This document shows positions 2,943-14,696 of a DNA stretch of 64,000 nucleotides, piece after piece (the stretch's first letter is position 1; each line of letters starts with the position of its first letter). Source of the stretch: Daejeonella sp. (GTDB lineage: Bacteria > Bacteroidota > Bacteroidia > Sphingobacteriales > Sphingobacteriaceae). The position numbers and the translations under genes were made by a program. The DNA lies in the NCBI RefSeq assembly GCF_030695525.1, contig NZ_JAUYSS010000065.1, positions 1 through 64,000 of the forward strand, written 5' to 3'. Under the pieces are notes generated by a model, which saw only the letters and a program-made list of their open reading frames with translations, did no database searches and was not told the DNA's origin.

Positions 2943-3113
2943 ATTGCAAATTAATTTTGCATATGCTTATTATGATGGTATTCGTATAGGGGCTAAAACC
3001 AACTGTCAATAAATACAAAACGGCAAAATTTAAGAAAACAGCAATTAAAGTACATTGAGCGGTATATTTATACTATAGAAGTTAATGTTCAAATAAAAAC
3101 GAAATGTACAAAT

Positions 3114-3140
3114 TACCATTTACTACCATTTAATTACCAT
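3114..3140. repeat. Helically phased TACCAT repeats in the left flank of the Mu-like element
   Basis: TACCATT at 3114 and 3124, TACCAT at 3135 (10- and 11-bp spacing); another TACCATT at 3395. Confidence 0.45.
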
Positions 3141-3309
3141 TATTAAGTTAAGCAGCCTTAAAAACCTCCTATAAACTACTATTTATGCCCTTAATAATAT
3201 AATTAGGGTGTATTATAAAGATAATTAATCCACTTTATTTAATGATTAAATGAGCTTAATACCATGCTTAAATAGTATGGTAAAACCGGAGTTTTAAACT
3301 AATTTAAAA

Positions 3310-3357
3310 GTTGGGGCTACAGTTGGGGTTACAGTTGGGGTTACAGTTGGGGGCCAA
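3310..3357 (+). repeat. 12-bp tandem repeat (GTTGGGGTTACA) with four G4 tracts
   Basis: GTTGGGGCTACA-GTTGGGGTTACA-GTTGGGGTTACA-GTTGGGGGCCAA; four runs of at least 4 G separated by 8-nt loops. Confidence 0.8.
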
Positions 3358-3583
3358 AAAAGTAGTGATTGGTAACCCTATAGGGTAAAAAAACTACCAT
3401 TTAATACCCCAAAAATGCGGATTGCCCCCCCCCCATAGGGATAATAAGTATGAATTCTATTTCTTATATAAATTATTGATTAACAGTAACTTATATAAGG
3501 TTTTAATAGAAATGATTTTAAAAAAGTTATGTGTGCGGTGATTTTATGTGTATTAATGGTGTTTTAAACGGTATACAAACATT

Positions 3584-4252
3584 TTAGTTGTTTAGATAAC
3601 CTGATATTATATTTTCGGTATCTGCTGGTTTAGCTTCAGAATAAAACTCCTTGATCGCATCCGATAATTTCTCTAATGATGGCGAGAATGGCATTACTTT
3701 ATCAATCTCCTTAAAGATATCTGACCTGTACTTTTCAAAATCAAATTTCTTACCATTATAATTACTTTGGATCTCGTAGAACTTCTTATCAATATTCTCA
3801 AAATAATAATGATCTAGGTTTGATATTATATACTGGAAGTTTAACAATGTATTAATGTCCTTGTAGAGCTTTGACCGCTTATCAGTTCCCTGAACTAGTT
3901 GTGTTTCTACTTTATTCATCATCCGGCGCTCTAAATATATTGGAGCGTCATTATCTACATAACTTTTATTAATAATGTCGCCTTCATTAGCTTTTGTAAT
4001 AATTCCAGACTTTTTAATACCTGGACTTCCATTCGCATTCCACATATCACCAACTCCTGTTAGTAACCAGTCCTGATTCAAGTTTGGATATCTACCAATA
4101 ATTTTCTTATATATATCGATACCAAAGTTGACATCTTTAGTTGTAATTTTTGATACCATAGCACTGGATGTGCCTATTTCACGCGCAAATTCGTTCTTTG
4201 ACAGCTTTAAGGTGCGTATTAGCTCATTAAGCCTCTCTTTGATAAGGTTCAT
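3584..4252 (-). CDS. Phage-type helix-turn-helix repressor
   Basis: N-terminal 'LIRTLKLSKNEFAREIGTSSAMVSKI' HTH; divergent from the transposition genes. Confidence 0.75.
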   Translation of the reverse strand: MNLIKERLNELIRTLKLSKNEFAREIGTSSAMVSKITTKDVNFGIDIYKKIIGRYPNLNQDWLLTGVGDMWNANGSPGIKKSGIITKANEGDIINKSYVDNDAPIYLERRMMNKVETQLVQGTDKRSKLYKDINTLLNFQYIISNLDHYYFENIDKKFYEIQSNYNGKKFDFEKYRSDIFKEIDKVMPFSPSLEKLSDAIKEFYSEAKPADTENIISGYLNN

Positions 4253-4281
4253 AAAATTTTACAAAATGTTAAATATTATCA

Positions 4282-4313
4282 ATTATTATTTGCAAATAAG
4301 ATTATTATTTGCA
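4282..4313. promoter_or_regulatory. Direct-repeat operator candidate between divergent regulators
   Basis: ATTATTATTTGCA at 4282-4294 and 4301-4313 in the repressor/Ner intergenic region. Confidence 0.5.
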
Positions 4314-4353
4314 TTTTTACTTATAATATTACTGGACATTATCTTATAAATGT

Positions 4354-4575
4354 ATGGAAACAACCTTTAACATTGATAAAATTCGCGAACAATTACCGTT
4401 CGGAGCTCAAACAGAAATTGCAAAAAAATGCAATGTAACTGTTTGTATGGTTAATCGGGTTTTGAATGGAAAATCCGAGAATACAAAAATTTTGGATGCT
4501 ATTGCTGATTACTTAACAGATTTTAAGCAGCAAAAAAATGATACTATTTCTCGTCTAGCATCTTTAATTGATTAA
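4354..4575 (+). CDS. Small Ner/Cro-like HTH protein
   Basis: 73 aa 'QTEIAKKCNVTVCMVNRVLNGKSENTKILDAIADYL' HTH; first gene of the rightward operon. Confidence 0.65.
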   Translation: METTFNIDKIREQLPFGAQTEIAKKCNVTVCMVNRVLNGKSENTKILDAIADYLTDFKQQKNDTISRLASLID

Positions 4576-4584
4576 GCACTCACA

Positions 4585-6609
4585 ATGCCGCACGAGTGGA
4601 ATAATATCATAGTGGTTACCAAAGAGGAACTTGTTCCGGCCTGGTATCATACATGGTCAAACCTTAAATTAACCCTTCACCGGTTTGCCGATAAGCCCTA
4701 TGGTATAAAGCGTGCTCAGCTTGGAGGTAATGGTAGACAGTTATTAATTGCATTTGACAGTTTACCAGAGCATATAAAAAACGGGCTTGGTGATCCTCGC
4801 AAAATAACTCACATTCTTGAGCGATATTATAAAATTGACAGCGAGGCTGTTACTTTCTTTTCTACATATTCCTTTCCAGATGGCAGTTACTTGGATGTAT
4901 TATATCAAGAACGATATATAATAAATGCAAGCGTTTTAAAGGCTGTGATTGCCTTGAGGTCAGCTAGAACTCAAGAAAGGCAAACAAAAGGTGGAAACTT
5001 AACAGGTATCCTTTCAACCCTATGTAATGACGTCAAAAGCTTTCAGACAATACTTAAATCAAAACATCGGGTACATCATAACCTGCCAGAGAATGAAAGG
5101 AGATTTAAAGACACTTTAAAAGCGTTTGAAAAGGAAGGATATGAAACTTTAATCTCCGGGAAGCATAAGAATCAAAATACTAGGAAAGTAACCGACAATA
5201 CTTTAGAGTTATTAAAAAGTATGTTTGCCGGTGCTAATAGTAAGCCTACTGCAACCGAAGTTTATAGGCAATATGGCTCCTTTATTGCCGGTTATTTACA
5301 AGTTATAAATAATGAAAGCGGTGAAATCTATAATCCCGTAGAATTTAAGAAGCTCAGTACTCAGACAGTTACTAATTATATGGCTCAGTGGTCTACCAAA
5401 ATAGGTACCCATTCCATCCGAAGTGGAGACCGTCAAAAGTTGATGCAATTATTTAAGCCTCACCATTCACTAGATAAACCAAAGTTTGCAGGATCAATTA
5501 TCTCAATCGACGATAGACAACCTCCTTTTAAGTCTACCGATGGTAAACGGGTTTGGTTTTACAATGGCATCGACCTGGGAAGCGAGGCCTTCACATGTTG
5601 GGTACATGGTCGCGAAAAAGAAGGGATCATATTAGATTTTTACCGGCAGCTTGTAAGGAATTACGCCGAATGGGGTTTTAACCTTCCTGCTGAACTTGAA
5701 GCCGAAATGAGCTTAAACAGCTCCTTTATTGAAACCTTTCTCAAATCGGGTGCTATGTTTCAAGAGGTCAGAATAGAGGCTAATAATGCACGAGGAAAGC
5801 GAATAGAAGCTTATTACAGACAACTAAGATACGCAATAGAGAAAGACCGTACCGGATGGCTTGCCAGGCCATTTGCAAACAGTGAAAGTAACCAGGCCGG
5901 TCCTGATAAAGTTAAAGAGCTTCCATACAACGAAATTATTGAAGGCTGTTTAAATGATATTGAGAAGTGGAATAACATGCCACATAGTTTGCATAAAGAT
6001 ATGAGCAGGTGGCAAGTATTCTGTGAAATGCAGAATCCTGACTTAAAGCCAACAAACTATGCTGCTATTATACCCCACATCGGATATCAAACAAAAACCT
6101 CTTGTAATGTTGGTATTATGCGTTTACAAGGAGGTGAATATCTAATAGGTTTAGATAATGAAATATGTACGGGTGAACGTCTTATAGGCTTAATGAGAAT
6201 TGTAGAAGGCCATAATGTTACTATTTATTGGCTTGATGATAATGATGGAAGAGTATTTAAGGCCCTTGTGTTCATTGGCAATCAGTTTATCTGTGAGGCA
6301 ATTAAAAAACCCTCATATAATCGAGCGAAAATCGAACAAACCGAAACCGATTTAATAAATCGTGAAATAATGAGCAAGTACGTTTCATCAATTGAAGCAT
6401 ACGGTCGCAGACAACGTCAATCTATTGACCGGATTACCATTATTGATAATACTCCCCCACTTAAGAAAACTTTCATCATGCCAGGATTAAAACAAGCTTT
6501 ACCTATAGAAAATTGGGAAGCTCCGGAATTACTTCCAATTCTGCCAGTAAGTGAAGAGTTTAACACCACTTCATATACTCATGGTCTTCCTTTAAAAGAT
6601 AGATGGTAA
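4585..6609 (+). CDS. Mu-like transposase A (rve/DDE integrase core)
   Basis: 674 aa; core 'SIDDRQPPFKSTDGKRVWFYNGIDLGSEAF...EMSLNSSF...RIEANNARGKRIEAYYRQLRY'; followed by an AAA ATPase overlapping by ATGGTAA. Confidence 0.85.
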   Translation: MPHEWNNIIVVTKEELVPAWYHTWSNLKLTLHRFADKPYGIKRAQLGGNGRQLLIAFDSLPEHIKNGLGDPRKITHILERYYKIDSEAVTFFSTYSFPDGSYLDVLYQERYIINASVLKAVIALRSARTQERQTKGGNLTGILSTLCNDVKSFQTILKSKHRVHHNLPENERRFKDTLKAFEKEGYETLISGKHKNQNTRKVTDNTLELLKSMFAGANSKPTATEVYRQYGSFIAGYLQVINNESGEIYNPVEFKKLSTQTVTNYMAQWSTKIGTHSIRSGDRQKLMQLFKPHHSLDKPKFAGSIISIDDRQPPFKSTDGKRVWFYNGIDLGSEAFTCWVHGREKEGIILDFYRQLVRNYAEWGFNLPAELEAEMSLNSSFIETFLKSGAMFQEVRIEANNARGKRIEAYYRQLRYAIEKDRTGWLARPFANSESNQAGPDKVKELPYNEIIEGCLNDIEKWNNMPHSLHKDMSRWQVFCEMQNPDLKPTNYAAIIPHIGYQTKTSCNVGIMRLQGGEYLIGLDNEICTGERLIGLMRIVEGHNVTIYWLDDNDGRVFKALVFIGNQFICEAIKKPSYNRAKIEQTETDLINREIMSKYVSSIEAYGRRQRQSIDRITIIDNTPPLKKTFIMPGLKQALPIENWEAPELLPILPVSEEFNTTSYTHGLPLKDRW

Positions 6610-7541
6610 ATAATAAAGCTATGCAAGCACTAAGTATTGAATTTAAGGTGAACGTATCTAAAAAGCTAAAAGAGGCATATGATAGCCCTAATTACGTAAA
6701 TGTTGGTTTTTTGAGACATTATGAGCTAACATCCAGAGCCTGTGTCGATATAATTAGAGGTAAAATTGAAGGAGTACTGACAGATCAACAATGGTTAAGG
6801 CTTGGAAGTAAGTTAAATGTTAAAACCGAGAAGTTGTGGAATTTAGCACGTACGGATGTATTCACAGTATTAGAAGAAGATATCCTTTTTTGTAAAGATA
6901 ATGCTAAGGCTAAAATCTGTGTTGATGAATGTGGTATAGGTAAAACATTTACTGCTAAATATTTATCAAAAACATTAGAGAACTGTTTTTATGTTGATGC
7001 AAGCCAGGGTAAAACCATATTACAGTTTACAAAAGCACTCGCTTCTTCCATCGGATTGAATATAATTAGTAAGCATGCCGACCTCAAACAAGATATTAAA
7101 TGCTATCTCAAAATAATTAATAATCCCATAGTTATAATTGATGAGGCAGGCGATTTAGGTCAAGTTACTCTGCAAGAAATTAAGGAGTATTGGAATGCTA
7201 CTGAGGGTTTTTGTGGGTGGTACCTTATGGGGGCAGATGGATTAAGGTATACTATTGAAAAAGGAATCAAACTTAGAAAACCCGGATTTAAAGAAATTTT
7301 TAGCCGGTTTTCAGAACGATATACTACGGTGGTTCCGATTGATAAAAAAAGTAAAATCCTCTTTTATAAAAAGCTTATCAAGGATGTATTGAGTGTCAAT
7401 ATGTCAAACACAAAAGCCATTGACGATATCGTAACCAGGTGTCTAACAAATGATCTACAGGGAACCGTTTCAGGACTTCGAAGGGCTGAAAGTCTTTTAA
7501 TCTTAACTAAAACTGAAAACATTATACTGACCGAATCATAA
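6603..7541 (+). CDS. MuB-like AAA+ ATPase (transposition target activator)
   Basis: 312 aa; Walker A-like 'DECGIGKTFTAKYL', Walker B 'NPIVIIDEAGDLG'; start overlaps the MuA stop. Confidence 0.82.
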   Translation: MVNNKAMQALSIEFKVNVSKKLKEAYDSPNYVNVGFLRHYELTSRACVDIIRGKIEGVLTDQQWLRLGSKLNVKTEKLWNLARTDVFTVLEEDILFCKDNAKAKICVDECGIGKTFTAKYLSKTLENCFYVDASQGKTILQFTKALASSIGLNIISKHADLKQDIKCYLKIINNPIVIIDEAGDLGQVTLQEIKEYWNATEGFCGWYLMGADGLRYTIEKGIKLRKPGFKEIFSRFSERYTTVVPIDKKSKILFYKKLIKDVLSVNMSNTKAIDDIVTRCLTNDLQGTVSGLRRAESLLILTKTENIILTES

Positions 7542-7559
7542 AATAAAAAACCCAAAATC

Positions 7560-8015
7560 ATGATGAATAGAAATGAACATTCAAAAACAGAACGGGAATT
7601 AAGTATGGCTATAGCTGTAAATAAATTTTCGGAGTTTCTAAAGCAATTTAGCTCATTAGATGAGATTAAACAGAAATACTCAGAATTGTATTTCGATTGT
7701 TCTCAATATGTAATGAGATCACAGGATTCTTATAGATACGATTGCCCAACAAACCTCCATTACCTAATTGAACTAATTGAGCTGCTTAATATGGCAGATC
7801 TGGAAAAAGAGGGTATCACAGAAGACCAAATAAATCAGCTAAACAATGTTTTTTACCCGGTTGAAATTGACGACCCAGCATCGACAATTTTAGAGATATC
7901 TAACAATAGAACCTCTCAACTGGAAGAACTGACATTTATTGAAGCAAAAGCCCTTATAGATCGCCTGAATAAAGTTAATCAAACCCATTATTTAACTATT
8001 AAACAAAATGTATAA
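7560..8015 (+). CDS. Hypothetical protein of the Mu-like element
   Basis: 151 aa ORF in compact co-directional operon; no family recognised. Confidence 0.55.
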   Translation: MMNRNEHSKTERELSMAIAVNKFSEFLKQFSSLDEIKQKYSELYFDCSQYVMRSQDSYRYDCPTNLHYLIELIELLNMADLEKEGITEDQINQLNNVFYPVEIDDPASTILEISNNRTSQLEELTFIEAKALIDRLNKVNQTHYLTIKQNV

Positions 8016-8024
8016 CTAAATTTT

Positions 8025-8291
8025 ATGCTACAACTAAACAAAACCGACTTGGACGGCCTAGTCAAGGACCTGACCGTAATTAAAGAATTATCAAATCAAA
8101 TCGACAGCAAGCTTTCACTTGAAATAAACCAAATGGCTCCCCAATTAGAGGCTGATAATTTTGGAACTGAAGAGTATTCAAAAAAAGAAAAGTTAAAAAA
8201 ATTAATAGGTATGATGGATATGCTCGATCGATTGAAGGAAGTCTCCGAAGCGTTGATCGACAGTATAAAAATGTTAACTAACAAAAATTAA
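8025..8291 (+). CDS. Hypothetical small helical protein
   Basis: 88 aa ORF co-directional with short gaps. Confidence 0.5.
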   Translation: MLQLNKTDLDGLVKDLTVIKELSNQIDSKLSLEINQMAPQLEADNFGTEEYSKKEKLKKLIGMMDMLDRLKEVSEALIDSIKMLTNKN

Positions 8292-8292
8292 G

Positions 8293-8601
8293 ATGGAAAA
8301 GATAAAACCAACGTCAAAAGCTGACATATCAAAAAAAACCAAAGCTCTCAACGGCTTAATAGAATCTTTAGATGTGCTTGCAACTCTGAAAGATATCGTA
8401 GCTACTAAATTGGATGTTGTATTCTCTGAAGAGTGTACAGAATGTGGGAATCAAGCAAAGTTTATTCAAACAGCAAGAAAAATGTTTCAGGAAATGGCTC
8501 CGAATTACATTGCAATACATCTTGTAGAATTTAATAAAAGCTTAGAGATAAATGAGCGTTTTCCGCATTATGATGACATTGAAACTGAAACTAAATTTTA
8601 A
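8293..8601 (+). CDS. Hypothetical small helical protein
   Basis: 102 aa ORF immediately after the preceding stop. Confidence 0.5.
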   Translation: MEKIKPTSKADISKKTKALNGLIESLDVLATLKDIVATKLDVVFSEECTECGNQAKFIQTARKMFQEMAPNYIAIHLVEFNKSLEINERFPHYDDIETETKF

Positions 8602-8618
8602 ACTAATCAAATAAAAAA

Positions 8619-9260
8619 ATGGAAAGAATACTTTTATCCCACGACAAAAGAGGCTTTGACAAGGCTCTAAAATCAATTAATGCCGATCTTGCTATCTACA
8701 ATAACTTAGTCGAGGTCATTAATGAAAACACTGACAAATTTGCAGTTAGCAAAGAAAACATTCAAACGTTGCTGGCTGATCCTAAAGGATTCTTGTTTGA
8801 TTTGATAGTAGATAAATCTCACATGAGTTTTAACGGTCTTCCAATAAATAAGAAAAAGGCAATTGAGTTAATTGATTTCCCCAAAGAATTGAACATTATA
8901 ATATCTGAATTCCAATCCGCAAAAACAGAACTTTCAAAAGCTGGGCATGAAATAACCTCAGATATTACAATTGACAGGCTGTCTCTCGCAAATATAGAGT
9001 TGGTTGGCGATCGTTTTGTATTTACACCTAAATATGTAAGTGAAATTGAAGAAGAGTTTAGCTCCTATACTAGAAACGAAAATCAAAACGAAGCTTTTAA
9101 GCTCATGCAGCAATTTGATACCATAATCGATCGGCTTCTAAAGATTGGTATAATTAAACCGGGGCAAGATCTTGAGGAATTAAAATTGAGGGATTTAGGT
9201 TTTAATTTTTACGATAGAAAGAGAATTATTGACCTGAGCCGGATAAGGAGGGTACGATAA
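8619..9260 (+). CDS. Hypothetical phage protein
   Basis: 213 aa ORF; stop overlaps the next start (TAATG). Confidence 0.55.
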   Translation: MERILLSHDKRGFDKALKSINADLAIYNNLVEVINENTDKFAVSKENIQTLLADPKGFLFDLIVDKSHMSFNGLPINKKKAIELIDFPKELNIIISEFQSAKTELSKAGHEITSDITIDRLSLANIELVGDRFVFTPKYVSEIEEEFSSYTRNENQNEAFKLMQQFDTIIDRLLKIGIIKPGQDLEELKLRDLGFNFYDRKRIIDLSRIRRVR

Positions 9261-10219
9261 TGTTGACACTTAGTTCTTTGATAATATTTGATGATTTTGA
9301 CACCACTGGAAGTTTAAAATTGCCTTTCTGTAATAATATTGAGATTGAAAAAAGCAGAAAAACCCTGACTAATACCTGTAAAATAACTTTACCTCGTAAC
9401 ATGCTTGGATTACAGAACTATGATATAAACAAGCGATTTTTAAGACCTGGTTTAAAAGTTACCGTTTCTTTAGGTTATGATGGAGTGCTGGTTAAAGAGT
9501 TCACCGGATATATAGCAAAAGTAAGTTTCAAAATACCTGTAGAAATCATTTGTGAGGATGAAATGTGGCCCCTTAAACAGAATAGCTTCACAAGGGCTTT
9601 TCCCTCTGTCAGCCTTAAAGAACTTATTAAATATGTTTACACAGGTACAGCTAGGGTTAGTGATCTTACATTAGGCGGTTTTGTCATTAAGCAGCAAAGT
9701 ACAGCCCAAGTATTGGAAGCATTAAAGAAATTTGGTGTGCAGTGTTATTTTGATACTGATGGAGTGCTGGTGGCCGAATTTGCAGGATCAATATCAGGCA
9801 AACGTAAAGAAATACTTTACGACTTTAATACCAATGTCATAGATAACGATTTGGAATACAAGCGTAAGGAAGATATCAGAATTAAAGTTAAAGGTATCAG
9901 TAAACTTCCCGATGGTAAAAAGATTGAGGTATTTTTTGGAGAACAGGATGGAGATGAAAGGACACTTAACTTTGTAAACTTAGATAAAGCAGCTCTCTTT
10001 AAAATTGTTCAAAATGAGTTTGACAAACTTAAGCAGGATGGTTTAACAAATTCATTTACAACCTTTGGTATGCCTTATGCCGAGCCTGGTGATATAGCCA
10101 TTATAAATGATGATGTATATCCCGAAAGAAATGGATCGTATTTAATTGAGTCGGTCAAAACCCTCCATGGTGTAAATGGATTCCGGAGAGTAATCACTCC
10201 AGAAAGGAAGCTTGCTTAA
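9260..10219 (+). CDS. Phage tail hub / baseplate (late control D-like) protein
   Basis: 319 aa; 'LRPGLKVTVSLGYDGVLVKEFTGYIAKV...' and 'YAEPGDIAIINDDVYPERNGSYLIESVKTLHGVNGFRRVI' resemble tail-hub folds of contractile-tail phages. Confidence 0.55.
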   Translation: MLTLSSLIIFDDFDTTGSLKLPFCNNIEIEKSRKTLTNTCKITLPRNMLGLQNYDINKRFLRPGLKVTVSLGYDGVLVKEFTGYIAKVSFKIPVEIICEDEMWPLKQNSFTRAFPSVSLKELIKYVYTGTARVSDLTLGGFVIKQQSTAQVLEALKKFGVQCYFDTDGVLVAEFAGSISGKRKEILYDFNTNVIDNDLEYKRKEDIRIKVKGISKLPDGKKIEVFFGEQDGDERTLNFVNLDKAALFKIVQNEFDKLKQDGLTNSFTTFGMPYAEPGDIAIINDDVYPERNGSYLIESVKTLHGVNGFRRVITPERKLA

Positions 10220-10259
10220 ATCAGCTTTAAATGATTTTTAATCCTGTATTAAGTTAAAA

Positions 10260-10312
10260 CAAAAAAGGCCTTACGGGGCCCTTTTTGTTTGCTGTAAGTA
10301 CCAAGTTACAGC
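10260..10312 (+). terminator. Hairpin/T-run followed by a second hairpin between tail-hub and tape-measure genes
   Basis: AAAAAGGCC-TTACGG-GGCCCTTTTTG near 10261-10288, then GCTGTAA...TTACAGC (10291-10312). Confidence 0.55.
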
Positions 10313-10521
10313 CTCAATTAAAACAACAAACATGAATAATAATAGTTATTCTGGATAATGGATAATTAAACCCTAATAACATAAATGCAATATTGCAAAT
10401 TAGTAAGCTATAACACATCATTGCAGTTGCTTACTAAGTCCATATTTCGTTGTTGTATGAAATTTGTAGGATAGATTAAATACCAGCTATACTATTTTTG
10501 CTTAAACACCAACATTATTAT

Positions 10522-10725
10522 ATGCGAAATTCTGTATCAGGGTTAATAAAAGAACGAAATCAGAGAATCTATTCTAGATACTGCGATATGTATTTCACCA
10601 ATATGATGCGTGAAGAGGCTATATGGCCTGAATTAAAAAAGGAGTTTTGGCTTGAGGAAAACACAATTTATAGAATTGTATTGTCAATATCAAAAACCGC
10701 TACTAATGAACCGTCTCAAAATTAA
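10522..10725 (+). CDS. Hypothetical small protein
   Basis: Part of ORF 10498-10725, which starts TTG; first ATG near 10522; just upstream of the tape measure. Confidence 0.4.
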   Translation: MRNSVSGLIKERNQRIYSRYCDMYFTNMMREEAIWPELKKEFWLEENTIYRIVLSISKTATNEPSQN

Positions 10726-10730
10726 CTATT

Positions 10731-12311
10731 ATGGCTAAAGGACTTGATTATTTAATTAACCTGAAGGATGGTAACTTTTCAGGAGCAAAGAACGCAAAGA
10801 GTGAACTTCAGGGGCTTGACAATGCTGTTGACCGATCCGGTAAAGGAATGTCTGGGTTAGGAAGTATTGTGCGAAGTGTTGGGGGCTTAATAGCAGCTTC
10901 TTTTGCGGTATCAGAGGTGTTTGCTTTTGGCAACGCATCTGTAGCTGCTTACAAAGAAGTTGAAATGGCATCGGCGCAGGCGCAGGCTGGTATTGTAAGT
11001 ACCAATGGCGCAGCTGGAAGATCAATGGATCAATTAATTACAAAAGCAAATGATCTTGAAAATACTACGCTGTTTGGCGATGACCAGGTAATCAATGCTC
11101 AATCGCTCCTGCTTACGTTTACTAAAGTTAAAGGAGCTGTATTTGATCAGGCTATACCGGCTATTGCAGACATGGCGCAACGTTTAGCCGGTGATGGTCC
11201 CGCTGATTTAAAGGGAGCATCTATTCAAGTAGGTAAAGCACTGAATGATCCAATAAGGGGCATTACTGCATTAAGCAAGGCTGGTGTAAGCTTTTCTGAA
11301 AGCCAGAAGAAAACCATTGAAAGCATGGTTGCACACAACAATTTAGCAGGCGCACAGGCTTTAATCTTGGGAGAACTCAATACTGAATTTGGCGGATCTG
11401 CAAAAGCTGCAAGAGATGCAGCCGGTGGGAAAGCTGACTTAACAGTAGCTATTGGTAATCTTCAGGAGGGTTTCGGGGAATTGCTTACAGGAGGTCTCAA
11501 TCCTTTTTATTCAGGTATGACATCTCTTGTTGAATTGGCACAAAAAGGTGTGAACTGGATCGGAGCAAATAAGGATTTAGTTAAAACTTTGGGAATTGAG
11601 CTAGGTATAGCAGCTGGATCTTATATGGTTATATCAACAAGTTTAGGCATTTATACTGCATATCAAACCGCAGCAGCCGCAGCTACAGGAGGGTTAACAA
11701 TGGCTCAATGGGCATGGAATGCAGCTATGACGGCCAATCCATTGGGATTAGTTATTACAGGAGTTGGAGTTCTAATTGGTGGCTTAACTATCGCTTACAA
11801 GAGATCTGAAAATTTCAGAGCTGGCCTGAATGGTTTGATTGAAGTTGGGGGTGTGCTTGGTTCAGTGTTTATGGGAGTTGGTAAAACTATTCTTGGTGCA
11901 TTATCCTTTAATAAAGACCTATTTCTAGAAGGGGTACGAGACAGTGTCAAAGTAGCCCAGGAAATTGCTGGAGGAGGAATTGGTAAGGCATTTAATAAAG
12001 GCTTTGATGCCAGTATAGCAGAAACCAGGCTGAATGAAAAACAGTCGGCAATGGATAAACTGGCTTCTAATAAAAATACCGGATTACCTAAATCAGCAAC
12101 ATCATTAAGTGGAGGATCTGGTGAGAGTACAACCTTATCAACAAACCGGCAGGTGCGTAATGTAAATGTAACCATTGGTAAGCTGGTAGAAAGTTTAACA
12201 GTTTCAACTACAAACCTTCAGGGAACATCTGCAGGAGATATGAAACGGATGATCACTGAGATTTTAACTGGAGCCGTTCATGATAGTGAACTAGCCTTAA
12301 GTAGCAATTAG
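10731..12311 (+). CDS. Short phage tail tape-measure-like protein
   Basis: 526 aa Ala/Gly-rich, 'GGLIAASFAVSEVFAFGNASVAAYKEVEMASAQAQAGI...LENTTLFGDDQVINAQSLLLTF' typical of tape measures. Confidence 0.72.
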   Translation: MAKGLDYLINLKDGNFSGAKNAKSELQGLDNAVDRSGKGMSGLGSIVRSVGGLIAASFAVSEVFAFGNASVAAYKEVEMASAQAQAGIVSTNGAAGRSMDQLITKANDLENTTLFGDDQVINAQSLLLTFTKVKGAVFDQAIPAIADMAQRLAGDGPADLKGASIQVGKALNDPIRGITALSKAGVSFSESQKKTIESMVAHNNLAGAQALILGELNTEFGGSAKAARDAAGGKADLTVAIGNLQEGFGELLTGGLNPFYSGMTSLVELAQKGVNWIGANKDLVKTLGIELGIAAGSYMVISTSLGIYTAYQTAAAAATGGLTMAQWAWNAAMTANPLGLVITGVGVLIGGLTIAYKRSENFRAGLNGLIEVGGVLGSVFMGVGKTILGALSFNKDLFLEGVRDSVKVAQEIAGGGIGKAFNKGFDASIAETRLNEKQSAMDKLASNKNTGLPKSATSLSGGSGESTTLSTNRQVRNVNVTIGKLVESLTVSTTNLQGTSAGDMKRMITEILTGAVHDSELALSSN

Positions 12312-12316
12312 TTGAA

Positions 12317-12610
12317 ATGAATAATTTACTGATTGACCAAACAAATGTTGATGAATGGAAAGATAAGTATAGTTATGTGGTAAAAGTAAGAATAGAGTTA
12401 CTAGATCACAGTCAATCCATTGGTTATTATAAGGCTCCAGAAGATGAGATAATTAATAAATGTATAAATCTTGTAAAACAGCAAGACATAGGTGAAGCAA
12501 GGGTATTTTTAGCTCAAAATACTTGGCTTGGAGGTGATATTAATCAGCAAATAAAGGAAAATCATGCTATACCTGCTCAAGCTATACTTTGGACTTTTAC
12601 AGGTATTTAA
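12317..12610 (+). CDS. Hypothetical protein, last ORF of the Mu-like element
   Basis: 97 aa ORF co-directional, directly after the tape measure. Confidence 0.5.
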   Translation: MNNLLIDQTNVDEWKDKYSYVVKVRIELLDHSQSIGYYKAPEDEIINKCINLVKQQDIGEARVFLAQNTWLGGDINQQIKENHAIPAQAILWTFTGI

Positions 12611-12777
12611 ATACAAATTATAGGGCTTTTAACTTTATATAAAACAGTCATTCAGTATGTTCTTTTTGGTTAAAAAGTGAACTTTTCGTTTTAGCTCCTT
12701 CGCACTTTTCGTTTTTTCGTTTATATTCGGGTATGGCGTTTACCATTGCACTTTCAGGGGTGTATAAAAATATAAAC

Positions 12778-13070
12778 ACGCGCCACAGGCGCGCGTTCAA
12801 TGTCATTATTTAAGAAGAAAAGGGGGTCGTGGCCTCCGCCACGATGACAGTTCAATATTTAATAGTAGGGGAGATCCTGAATTCGTCAGGATCGGAGTGA
12901 GTACCGAAAAAAGGCCTTTTCGATGTATAAATCAGCTATTGATAAGACTCCAATTCCGGCCTTGAGCTGTATTCTCTCGACACACAAGGAGTTGTCATTC
13001 TCGCGAAAGCGAGAACCTCCTTTGTAATTAACGCGTAATTTATCCTTAAATAATGACATTGGGCGCGCGT
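12778..13070. repeat. Nested-hairpin REP/MITE-like intergenic element
   Basis: Outer inverted repeat GCGCGCGTTCAATGTCATTATTTAAG (12789-12814) / CTTAAATAATGACATTGGGCGCGCGT (13045-13070), with internal hairpins at 12827-12844, 12873-12893 and 12998-13015. Confidence 0.7.
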
Positions 13071-13199
13071 TAGCACCAATATCAGAACAGCACCGCTTAC
13101 ACCTGTAAGCAAACAGGAATATTAAAACAAATAAATCCTCCTTTGTACTTTAGATTGAAAACAATAGTTTTGAGACCTGTCAGATATTAAAGTTCTTCT

Positions 13200-14696
13200 G
13201 TGAATAATCTCCTTATCTCATTCCGTAACGTAAGCATACGCCAATACAATTCTCTTGTTTTTGAAGGATTGGATTTTGAACTTGAAAAAGGTCAAAACTG
13301 GGCGCTGGTCGGTAAAAGCGGATCAGGGAAGAGTACTCTTTTAGATTTCATAATGGGTAAGGCCGCTATGGCCTGGGGGGAAGCCAGCTATCCGTATTTT
13401 GACTGCTATATTGATAAGCATCACCAGGATGATCCCTTTTTTAACCGGTATAAACTGATGGCTCAGGTTTCTGCCCGGCATGAGTTCCGGAATCTTTCGA
13501 ATACCAGCGATTTCTATTATCAGCAGCGCTTTAATTCATGTGATTCTGAAGATGCGGATACAGTAGCAAATTATCTTTCAGCGATAAAAAATGTTCGACC
13601 AGGAGGTTTCTGGACTTTCAAAAGGGTTACCGAACGACTAAACCTCCTGCCCCTGCTGGATAAGCAGCTAATTAAACTATCCAATGGTGAGACCAAACGT
13701 CTGCTGATTGCTTCGGCATTGATCAGAAATCCTATTTTATTATTGCTCGATAATCCTTTAAATGGGCTTGATGTAGCAGCCCGTCAGGATTTCAATGAGC
13801 TTATCCGGGAAATTTCTGACTTGGGTATCAGCATTATCATGGCTACCACTCCTGCAGAAATACCTGAAGCGATAAGTCATATTGCAGTCCTTGATGATGG
13901 TAAAATGATCAGTAAAGGTTCTTCAGATCAGGTTAGTATTGAGAATTTATCATTAAGTACAACCGAAAAAATCAATCAGGATGAATTGAGGAAATTGCTT
14001 TCTTCTACACAATGGCCTTCATATCAAAGCATTATCGGGATGGAAAATGTTAGTATTAAGTATGGCGCTAAGCTGATTCTGGATCGGGTAAACTGGCAGA
14101 TGAAGCAGGGGGAGCGCTGGATGCTTATCGGACATAATGGTGCGGGGAAATCAACTTTATTAAGTCTGATCAATGGCGATAATCCGCAGGCCTTTGCCAA
14201 TAAAATTACGCTCTTTGATCAGCGGAAAGGGACTGGCGAAAGTATCTGGGAAATAAAAAAAAAGATTGGATATGTTTCGCCCGAATTGTTTCAATATTTC
14301 CCGACTGGAAATACCTGCCTTCAGGTCATTGAGTCGGGTTTTGATGATACACTGGGTCTGTTTCGTATTTCAAGTAAATCGAAAGCCGAAGCATCTTTAC
14401 GCTGGATGAAACTGCTCCGGATTGAAGAGTATGCCAATAGGATGTTTCGAAATGTTCCTGTTAGTGTTCAGCGTATCTGCATGCTGGCCAGGGCAATGGT
14501 CAAGAACCCTGTGCTGTTGATTCTCGATGAACCCTGCCTCGGACTCGATTTTGCGCAGCAGGAACAGTTTAAAAATCTTATTGACGAGATCTGCTCAATA
14601 AGTAATCTGAGTCTGATTTATGTTAGTCATTATGAACAGGAAATGCCTGAAAGCATTACCCATACGCTAAAACTAGAGCAAGGGAGAGTGGTTTAA
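13200..14696 (+). CDS. Tandem-domain ABC ATPase (ModF/PhrA-like)
   Basis: 498 aa, two ABC domains: 'GKSGSGKSTLL...KLSNGETKRLLIASAL' and 'GHNGAGKSTLLSLI...ILDEPCLGLD'. GTG start. Confidence 0.85.
   Translation: MNNLLISFRNVSIRQYNSLVFEGLDFELEKGQNWALVGKSGSGKSTLLDFIMGKAAMAWGEASYPYFDCYIDKHHQDDPFFNRYKLMAQVSARHEFRNLSNTSDFYYQQRFNSCDSEDADTVANYLSAIKNVRPGGFWTFKRVTERLNLLPLLDKQLIKLSNGETKRLLIASALIRNPILLLLDNPLNGLDVAARQDFNELIREISDLGISIIMATTPAEIPEAISHIAVLDDGKMISKGSSDQVSIENLSLSTTEKINQDELRKLLSSTQWPSYQSIIGMENVSIKYGAKLILDRVNWQMKQGERWMLIGHNGAGKSTLLSLINGDNPQAFANKITLFDQRKGTGESIWEIKKKIGYVSPELFQYFPTGNTCLQVIESGFDDTLGLFRISSKSKAEASLRWMKLLRIEEYANRMFRNVPVSVQRICMLARAMVKNPVLLILDEPCLGLDFAQQEQFKNLIDEICSISNLSLIYVSHYEQEMPESITHTLKLEQGRVV

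Follow-up and report, generated by a model that had tools for sequence, protein, structure and literature searches.

A probable transposing phage satellite with hub, tape measure and tail chaperone genes in a Daejeonella genome

Laboratory mini-Mu elements consist of Mu ends and transposition genes and are mobilised by a helper Mu, capsid-forming phage-inducible chromosomal islands (cfPICIs) supply capsid and packaging functions themselves, and the PICI-like elements (PLEs) of Vibrio cholerae integrate by means of a recombinase and exploit the lytic helper ICP1. PLE11 encodes a tape measure protein (TMP), a tail assembly chaperone (TAC) and the baseplate hub BhuB, of which TMP and BhuB replace those of the phage in PLE11 virions, and in three PLEs transduction falls by 96-99.9% when tmp is deleted (PMC12987554). 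Putative tmp genes are also carried by some cfPICIs (PMC12987554, Extended Data Fig. 10), and PICIs are known to use a Mu-like phage as helper (PMC6092414). Here we describe a 9,741 bp element at positions 2985-12725 of a 64,000 bp stretch of Daejeonella sp. DNA (contig NZ_JAUYSS010000065.1, positions 1 to 64,000; hereafter the window). The element is probably an intact transposing phage satellite, a natural mini-Mu, that would exploit the particles of a helper and give rise to chimeric tails.

The window element resembles the PLEs in encoding TMP, TAC and a baseplate hub within an incomplete virion set; a PLE relies on its contractile-tailed helper for capsid, tube, sheath and fibres (PMC12987554). 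It differs from them in having MuA and MuB homologues, by which it is predicted to transpose, and in sharing its ends with Mu-like phages. With the Mu-like myophages of Bacteroidota (Winoviridae such as Peternella, and the full-length prophage G081C27; G numbers denote comparison genomes, C numbers their contigs and L numbers loci) it has in common MuA and MuB, a repressor, end sequences (those of G081C27) and homologues of hub, TMP and TAC, but these phages are 34.7-39.6 kb long, carry full sets of head, packaging, tail and lysis genes, lack the gene o213 described below, and have a prohead protease with a scaffold segment. PICIs (SaPIs and Gram-negative PICIs, PMC6092414) are likewise about one third of helper size and have a repressor switch, and several relatives of the window element encode a TerS-like helix-turn-helix (HTH) protein; however, PICIs use site-specific attachment sites (PMC6092414), whereas the window family inserts by a transposase at varying sites. 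No PICI-specific gene was recognised in the window element, nor does it have the unique attachment site that marks PICIs (PMC6092414). The cfPICIs and P4-like satellites are similar in that they provide some virion or capsid-remodelling functions, but capsid and packaging genes are absent from the window element (profiles negative), and P4 remodels through Sid rather than through a protease variant. Laboratory mini-Mus, finally, are engineered deletions, in contrast to a natural family with private genes and virion parts of its own.

The window element is flanked on both sides by a 4-bp TTCG duplication, with about one base of leeway in boundary placement because the tips were picked by alignment; the initial annotation had placed it at 3000-12750, close to the ends found. 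A comparison of terminal regions showed that the left tip (TATAGGGGCTAAAACCAACTGTC in the window element) and the right tip (reverse complement TATAAACGAAAA...) are conserved among related elements. Conserved tips and a 4-bp duplication are present in 7/7 elements examined, six of them short relatives (the window element included) and one a full phage, with the duplications GGAA in G278C1, GATT in G061, CTTG in G363, CGTC in G087, AATT in G189 and ACTT in the full prophage G081C27. Insertion is transposase-based, and both the sites and the duplications differ from element to element. Mu itself makes a 5-bp target duplication. The element in G087 provides an independent check on end placement, since it interrupts an M20 peptidase gene whose frame becomes continuous again when the flanks are joined without the element. 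At the window locus, mecI and the gene at 13200, which flank the element, are adjacent without it in two related genomes; the exact empty site was not recovered, as the intergenic sequence is too diverged and only the adjacency of the flanking genes is seen. The six short elements with both ends are 9.7-12.6 kb long (10.2-12.6 kb for those other than the window element), compared with 34.7 kb for the full phage G081C27.

Between these ends, all of the genes listed in the initial annotation (repressor and Ner, MuA-like, MuB-like, four open reading frames at 7560-9260, hub, TMP and a final frame) are present with open frames (Table 1), and both of the coupled overlaps that it reported are real, namely MuA/MuB at 6603-6609 and TAATG at 9258-9262 between o213 and the hub gene. 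The Mor/HTH-like gene at 10522-10725 had been overlooked, the intact final frame (12317-12610) can be refined to TAC, the tape-measure chaperone (HMM 1.1e-17), and the four frames taken for orphans are real, although the 213-aa one has a family, confined to related mini-elements. Gene functions in the element are assigned through homology alone. The MuA protein has intact motifs of the DDE region (residues 307, 327 and 403) and MuB a Walker A GxGKT at residue 111. A MuA-family DDE transposase with its MuB partner, paired ends and a short duplication, the features of a Mu-like transposable element, are all found together.

The virion genes are few. Hub, TMP and TAC are the entire predicted virion contribution of the window element, and their predicted lineage is that of a contractile-tailed Mu-like phage, with identities of 59%, 52% and 37%, respectively, to the full prophage G081C27. 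This is the only full-length phage with close relatives of all three, and the hub and TMP are full-length by comparison with it (319 vs 317 aa and 526 vs 532 aa). Relatives such as Winogradskyella and Flavobacterium phages suggest a placement in Bacteroidota. Virion-gene profiles built from full-length Mu-like relatives gave no match in the window element for the large terminase subunit (TerL), major capsid protein (MCP), portal, head morphogenesis, sheath, tube, gp25, wedge or tail completion proteins, and general PHROGs and Pfam annotation recognised no lysis gene in it, as the initial annotation had maintained for head, portal, terminase, sheath, tube and lysis genes. The element is a discrete mobile element with a partial virion set and virion-acting genes, as phage satellites generally are, and does not hold the head, packaging, tail and lysis genes of a complete Mu-like phage.

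The window element belongs to a family of short, o213-bearing Mu-like elements, which we refer to as minis. Its closest MuA relatives (61-63% identity) are those of three minis with defined ends, G278:C1, G061:C2 and G363:C120, and of one full phage, G215:C18. A profile of o213 was searched against 400 other genomes of the order, and separately against 228 genomes drawn across the phylum. Nine of the 400 matched, the weakest (G315, E 0.007) probably by chance, and minis in G087, G189, G090 and a G350 contig were added together with a reduced locus in G209; in the wider phylum set the window's own genome was the sole match among the 228. A single-sequence o213 query found no match among viral contigs, and a profile search of these returned L146 (11.9 kb), L147 (5.1 kb) and a third locus, L148, identical with the G189 element. 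Relatives are found in 8 other bacterial genomes of the same family and on 2 distinct virome contigs.

Eleven minis were profiled (window, G278C1, G061, G363, G087, G189, G090, G350, G209, L146 and L147). Their shared core comprises the repressor, Ner, MuA, MuB and o213 and, in most members, o154 (GemA-like), small Mor/HTH-like genes and the prohead protease, usually with a TerS-like HTH gene after MuB. Around this core the virion genes vary: a hub is present in four (window, G209, G350, L147), TMP in five (window, G061, G087, G189, L146), TAC in two (window, G061), a gpG neck protein in two (G363, L146), a spike in G209, a gp48-like protein in G090, and a fibre with an SGNH esterase in G278C1 (1/11), with the prohead protease in nine. 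The virion-gene profiles listed above as negative for the window element, from TerL to tail completion, were negative in all eleven. In the G278C1 element the fibre region (L084, 14288-16829) encodes a collagen-like fibre that has a LamG domain, together with an SGNH/SASA esterase, which might alter host attachment. The TMP of the G189 mini has 526 aa compared with 1,242 aa for its homologue (41% identity) in a Mu-like prophage that G189 also carries, and would be predicted to shorten tails. Downstream of this half-length tape measure, the G189 element (L142, G189:C15, 59517-72087) has an HslV-like peptidase and further cargo genes, and the IMG/VR viral contig L148 corresponds to it.

The gene o213 is the signature of these elements, being present in all eleven minis and in 0/9 full-length Mu-like phages (with a profile built without the window copy). 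No match was found to o213 in known phages; predicted models with pLDDT 82 and 86 had no match in BFVD, and the pLDDT 82 model had none in the PDB. As a capsid, neck or baseplate protein o213 was rejected, hhalign comparison with nine phage families giving no match. Because it is the sole non-regulatory gene retained in all members, o213 is the likeliest candidate for a hijack or interference factor, and it provides a simple marker for finding further such elements.

Function rather than decay is argued by the protease and by MuA. A segment of 53-67 aa in the scaffold position of the prohead protease is gone in 9/9 minis and kept in 10/10 full phages, the catalytic His and Ser being retained in the minis, and the mini MuA proteins fall into just two satellite-only clades (0/500 label shuffles as low), although family members share descent and these counts are of non-independent events. 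Both MuA types share one accessory core. In the sister pair G087-L146, dN/dS is 0.06-0.16 for MuA, MuB, o154, the protease, o213 and a gene next to it; dS in this pair is close to saturation. The loss of the scaffold segment (9/9) offers a testable idea for how such elements might shrink Mu-like capsids.

We propose that the window element, with its own MuA, MuB and ends, would replicate through transposition upon derepression or helper infection. The helper would be a Mu-like phage with a contractile tail and the source of capsid, portal, terminase, tube, sheath and lysis functions; as the element encodes only hub, TMP and TAC, all other particle parts would have to be helper-derived. During tail assembly the satellite proteins would take the place of those of the helper, yielding chimeric tails that carry satellite DNA and that probably favour the satellite over the helper or alter injection. 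By analogy, chimeric tail assembly is the likeliest role of the trio, since the PLEs provide a tested precedent and the window element has exactly hub, TMP and TAC. In the sister elements, the scaffold-less prohead protease would alter helper capsid assembly in a similar manner.

Several observations weigh against a transposing satellite. The host genome, a 98% complete draft, contains no Mu-like terminase and so no resident helper; the prohead protease carried by nine relatives is absent from the window element; no pac site was recognised; its TMP (526 aa) is close in length to that of the nearest full phage (532 aa), so that no shortening of the tail is predicted; and the window copy has few close relatives, the selection figures coming from sister elements only. 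The lack of a helper and of the protease would also fit a decayed or rearranged prophage, in which a phage of the G081C27 type lost most of its late genes and the rest are passive leftovers, as would the fact that hub, TMP and TAC have their closest homologues in a full-length Mu-like prophage. We consider this unlikely. No frame is broken, both ends are preserved and the target duplication is present, and minis with the same private core account for three of the closest MuA relatives. The MuA proteins of the minis group into two clades, which is not the pattern of scattered losses, and purifying selection is seen on sister elements. Origin from a full-length phage by a single deletion is ruled out, because hub, TMP and TAC have a different order and strand in G081C27, and several rearrangements would be required. 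The initial annotation put forward decay, a satellite or a transposon retaining tail parts, leaned mildly against decay, and regarded full-length phages as the only relatives, together with a deletion junction in this copy, as evidence to the contrary; its lean is supported, the opposite of both having been found. The satellite reading is favoured over decay because the closest MuA relatives include three minis, the gene order of G081C27 differs, the core spans two MuA lineages and dN/dS in the sister elements is low.

A second alternative is that the element is an anti-phage or immunity island, in which hub, TMP and TAC act as decoys or dominant negatives that poison phage tail assembly for the benefit of the host, mobility being secondary. 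Tail assembly is a known target of defence, including by satellite-borne systems (Tai, PMC11364771; Rta, PMC12987554), the universal o213 is unexplained, and the G209 locus retains repressor, o213, hub and spike without MuA or recognisable ends. The homologues are nevertheless full-length and not truncated decoys (hub, 319 vs 317 aa; TMP, 526 vs 532 aa), the element has kept MuA and MuB, and there is no convincing match to a defence family, PADLOC matches being weak only, such that an immunity role appears quite unlikely.

The G209 genome has on contig C4 a prophage at about 3700-34500 (L154-L156) and, at 91345-94776 (L023/L024, L128), an o213-hub-spike-HTH locus with a mini-type repressor, which we handle as a reduced relative because no ends were found there. 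This arrangement is suggestive of mutual phage-satellite dependence: the full-length Mu-like prophage (~3.7-34.5 kb) lacks hub and spike where G081C27 has them, the sole hub found in G209 is in the o213-hub-spike-o68 mini-locus ~57 kb away, and the divergence of this hub and spike (44% and 36%) is about that of other baseplate genes. That a mini is one part of a split phage genome, holding essential tail genes lost from a mutually dependent partner, is very improbable, since it draws on one case whose mini-locus has no MuA or ends and may equally be a relic beside a damaged prophage, G081C27 and other contractile relatives retain their own hub, and most mini-carrying genomes have no partner phage.

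Returning to the transposing satellite, the finding is real and phage satellites are a known kind of element; neither Mu-type mobility nor the private core nor the scaffold-less protease has been described to our knowledge or in the literature searched. No paper on transposing satellites was found in that literature, in which satellites integrate site-specifically and tail piracy was first reported in 2026 for one Vibrio family. More ambitiously, and doubtfully, the minis may represent an undescribed satellite family that moves by Mu-type replicative transposition and adds one or a few virion parts of its own (from among hub, TMP, TAC, spike, neck, fibre and scaffold-less protease) to the particles of a Mu-like helper, with phage and satellite forming a two-part virus in some hosts (G209), where the satellite would have the sole copy of hub and spike. 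If the satellite reading is true, a Mu-type family in a distant phylum with hub, TMP and TAC would mean that the building of chimeric tails has evolved at least twice, and phage satellites would gain a random, multi-copy route of transposition.

Table 1. Features of the window element and its borders, in window coordinates. HMM, hidden Markov model.
Feature	Coordinates	Strand	Evidence and remarks
Left target-site duplication copy, TTCG	2981..2984	no strand	4-bp rule also in 6 other elements
Left end: tip TATAGGGGCTAAAACCAACTGTC and non-coding terminal region	2985..3583	no strand	tip aligned with G061, G278C1, G363 and full phage G081C27
C-like repressor (HTH), 222 aa	3584..4252	-	phrog_8 5e-8; 55% identity over aligned part to G278C1 repressor
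Ner/Cro-like HTH, 73 aa	4354..4575	+	
MuA-like DDE transposase, 674 aa	4585..6609	+	phrog_310 9e-33; 61-63% to MuA of G278C1, G061, G363
MuB-like AAA+ transposition activator, 312 aa	6603..7541	+	phrog_296 1e-21; Pfam AAA_22
o151, distant o154-family member (GemA/gp16-like position)	7560..8015	+	HMM 1.3e-16, window copy among the model's own rows
o88, weakly similar to o102	8025..8291	+	
o102	8293..8601	+	
o213, mini-element signature gene, 213 aa	8619..9260	+	profile of 7 other members, window excluded, 3.7e-6; hhalign 4e-6
Baseplate hub (gpD/gp27-like), 319 aa	9260..10219	+	phrog_4930 1.4e-70; full-phage hub HMM 4.6e-111
Terminator-like hairpin (GGCCTTACGGGGCC and T-run) after hub	10267..10290	+	1 found vs 0.2 expected
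Small Mor/HTH-like regulator, 67 aa	10522..10725	+	family A6; relatives in minis and full phage G081C27
Tape measure protein (TMP), 526 aa	10731..12311	+	phrog_27166 9e-29; HMM 7.5e-113
Tail assembly chaperone (TAC), 97 aa	12317..12610	+	full-phage TAC HMM 1.1e-17
Right end: two direct ACTTTTCGTTTT repeats (possible MuA sites) and tip	12681..12725	no strand	tip reverse complement TATAAACGAAAAAACG
Right target-site duplication copy, TTCG	12726..12729	no strand	

Among the smaller features of the element, the hairpin at 10267-10290 divides the hub unit from a second unit comprising the Mor/HTH-like gene, TMP and TAC. The link of family A6 to Mor comes from a weak Pfam Mor match in a relative of the 10522-10725 gene. 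Relatives of o151 occur in minis and, weakly, also in full phages.

In G278, a second MuA/Ner/repressor set lies at a contig edge (G278:C12:590-2948, L090) and may belong to a mini or a full phage. Adjoining the window element is a 284-bp repeat at 12788-13071 that resembles a miniature inverted-repeat transposable element, with 31-bp inverted ends and about eight near-full copies at at least 89% in the genome, as well as many partial ones. On the other side, the gene at 271-819 is by appearance that of a REP-type (Y1-like) transposase, and a 36-bp sequence upstream of it (91-126) recurs around a homologous gene in G004 (L103).

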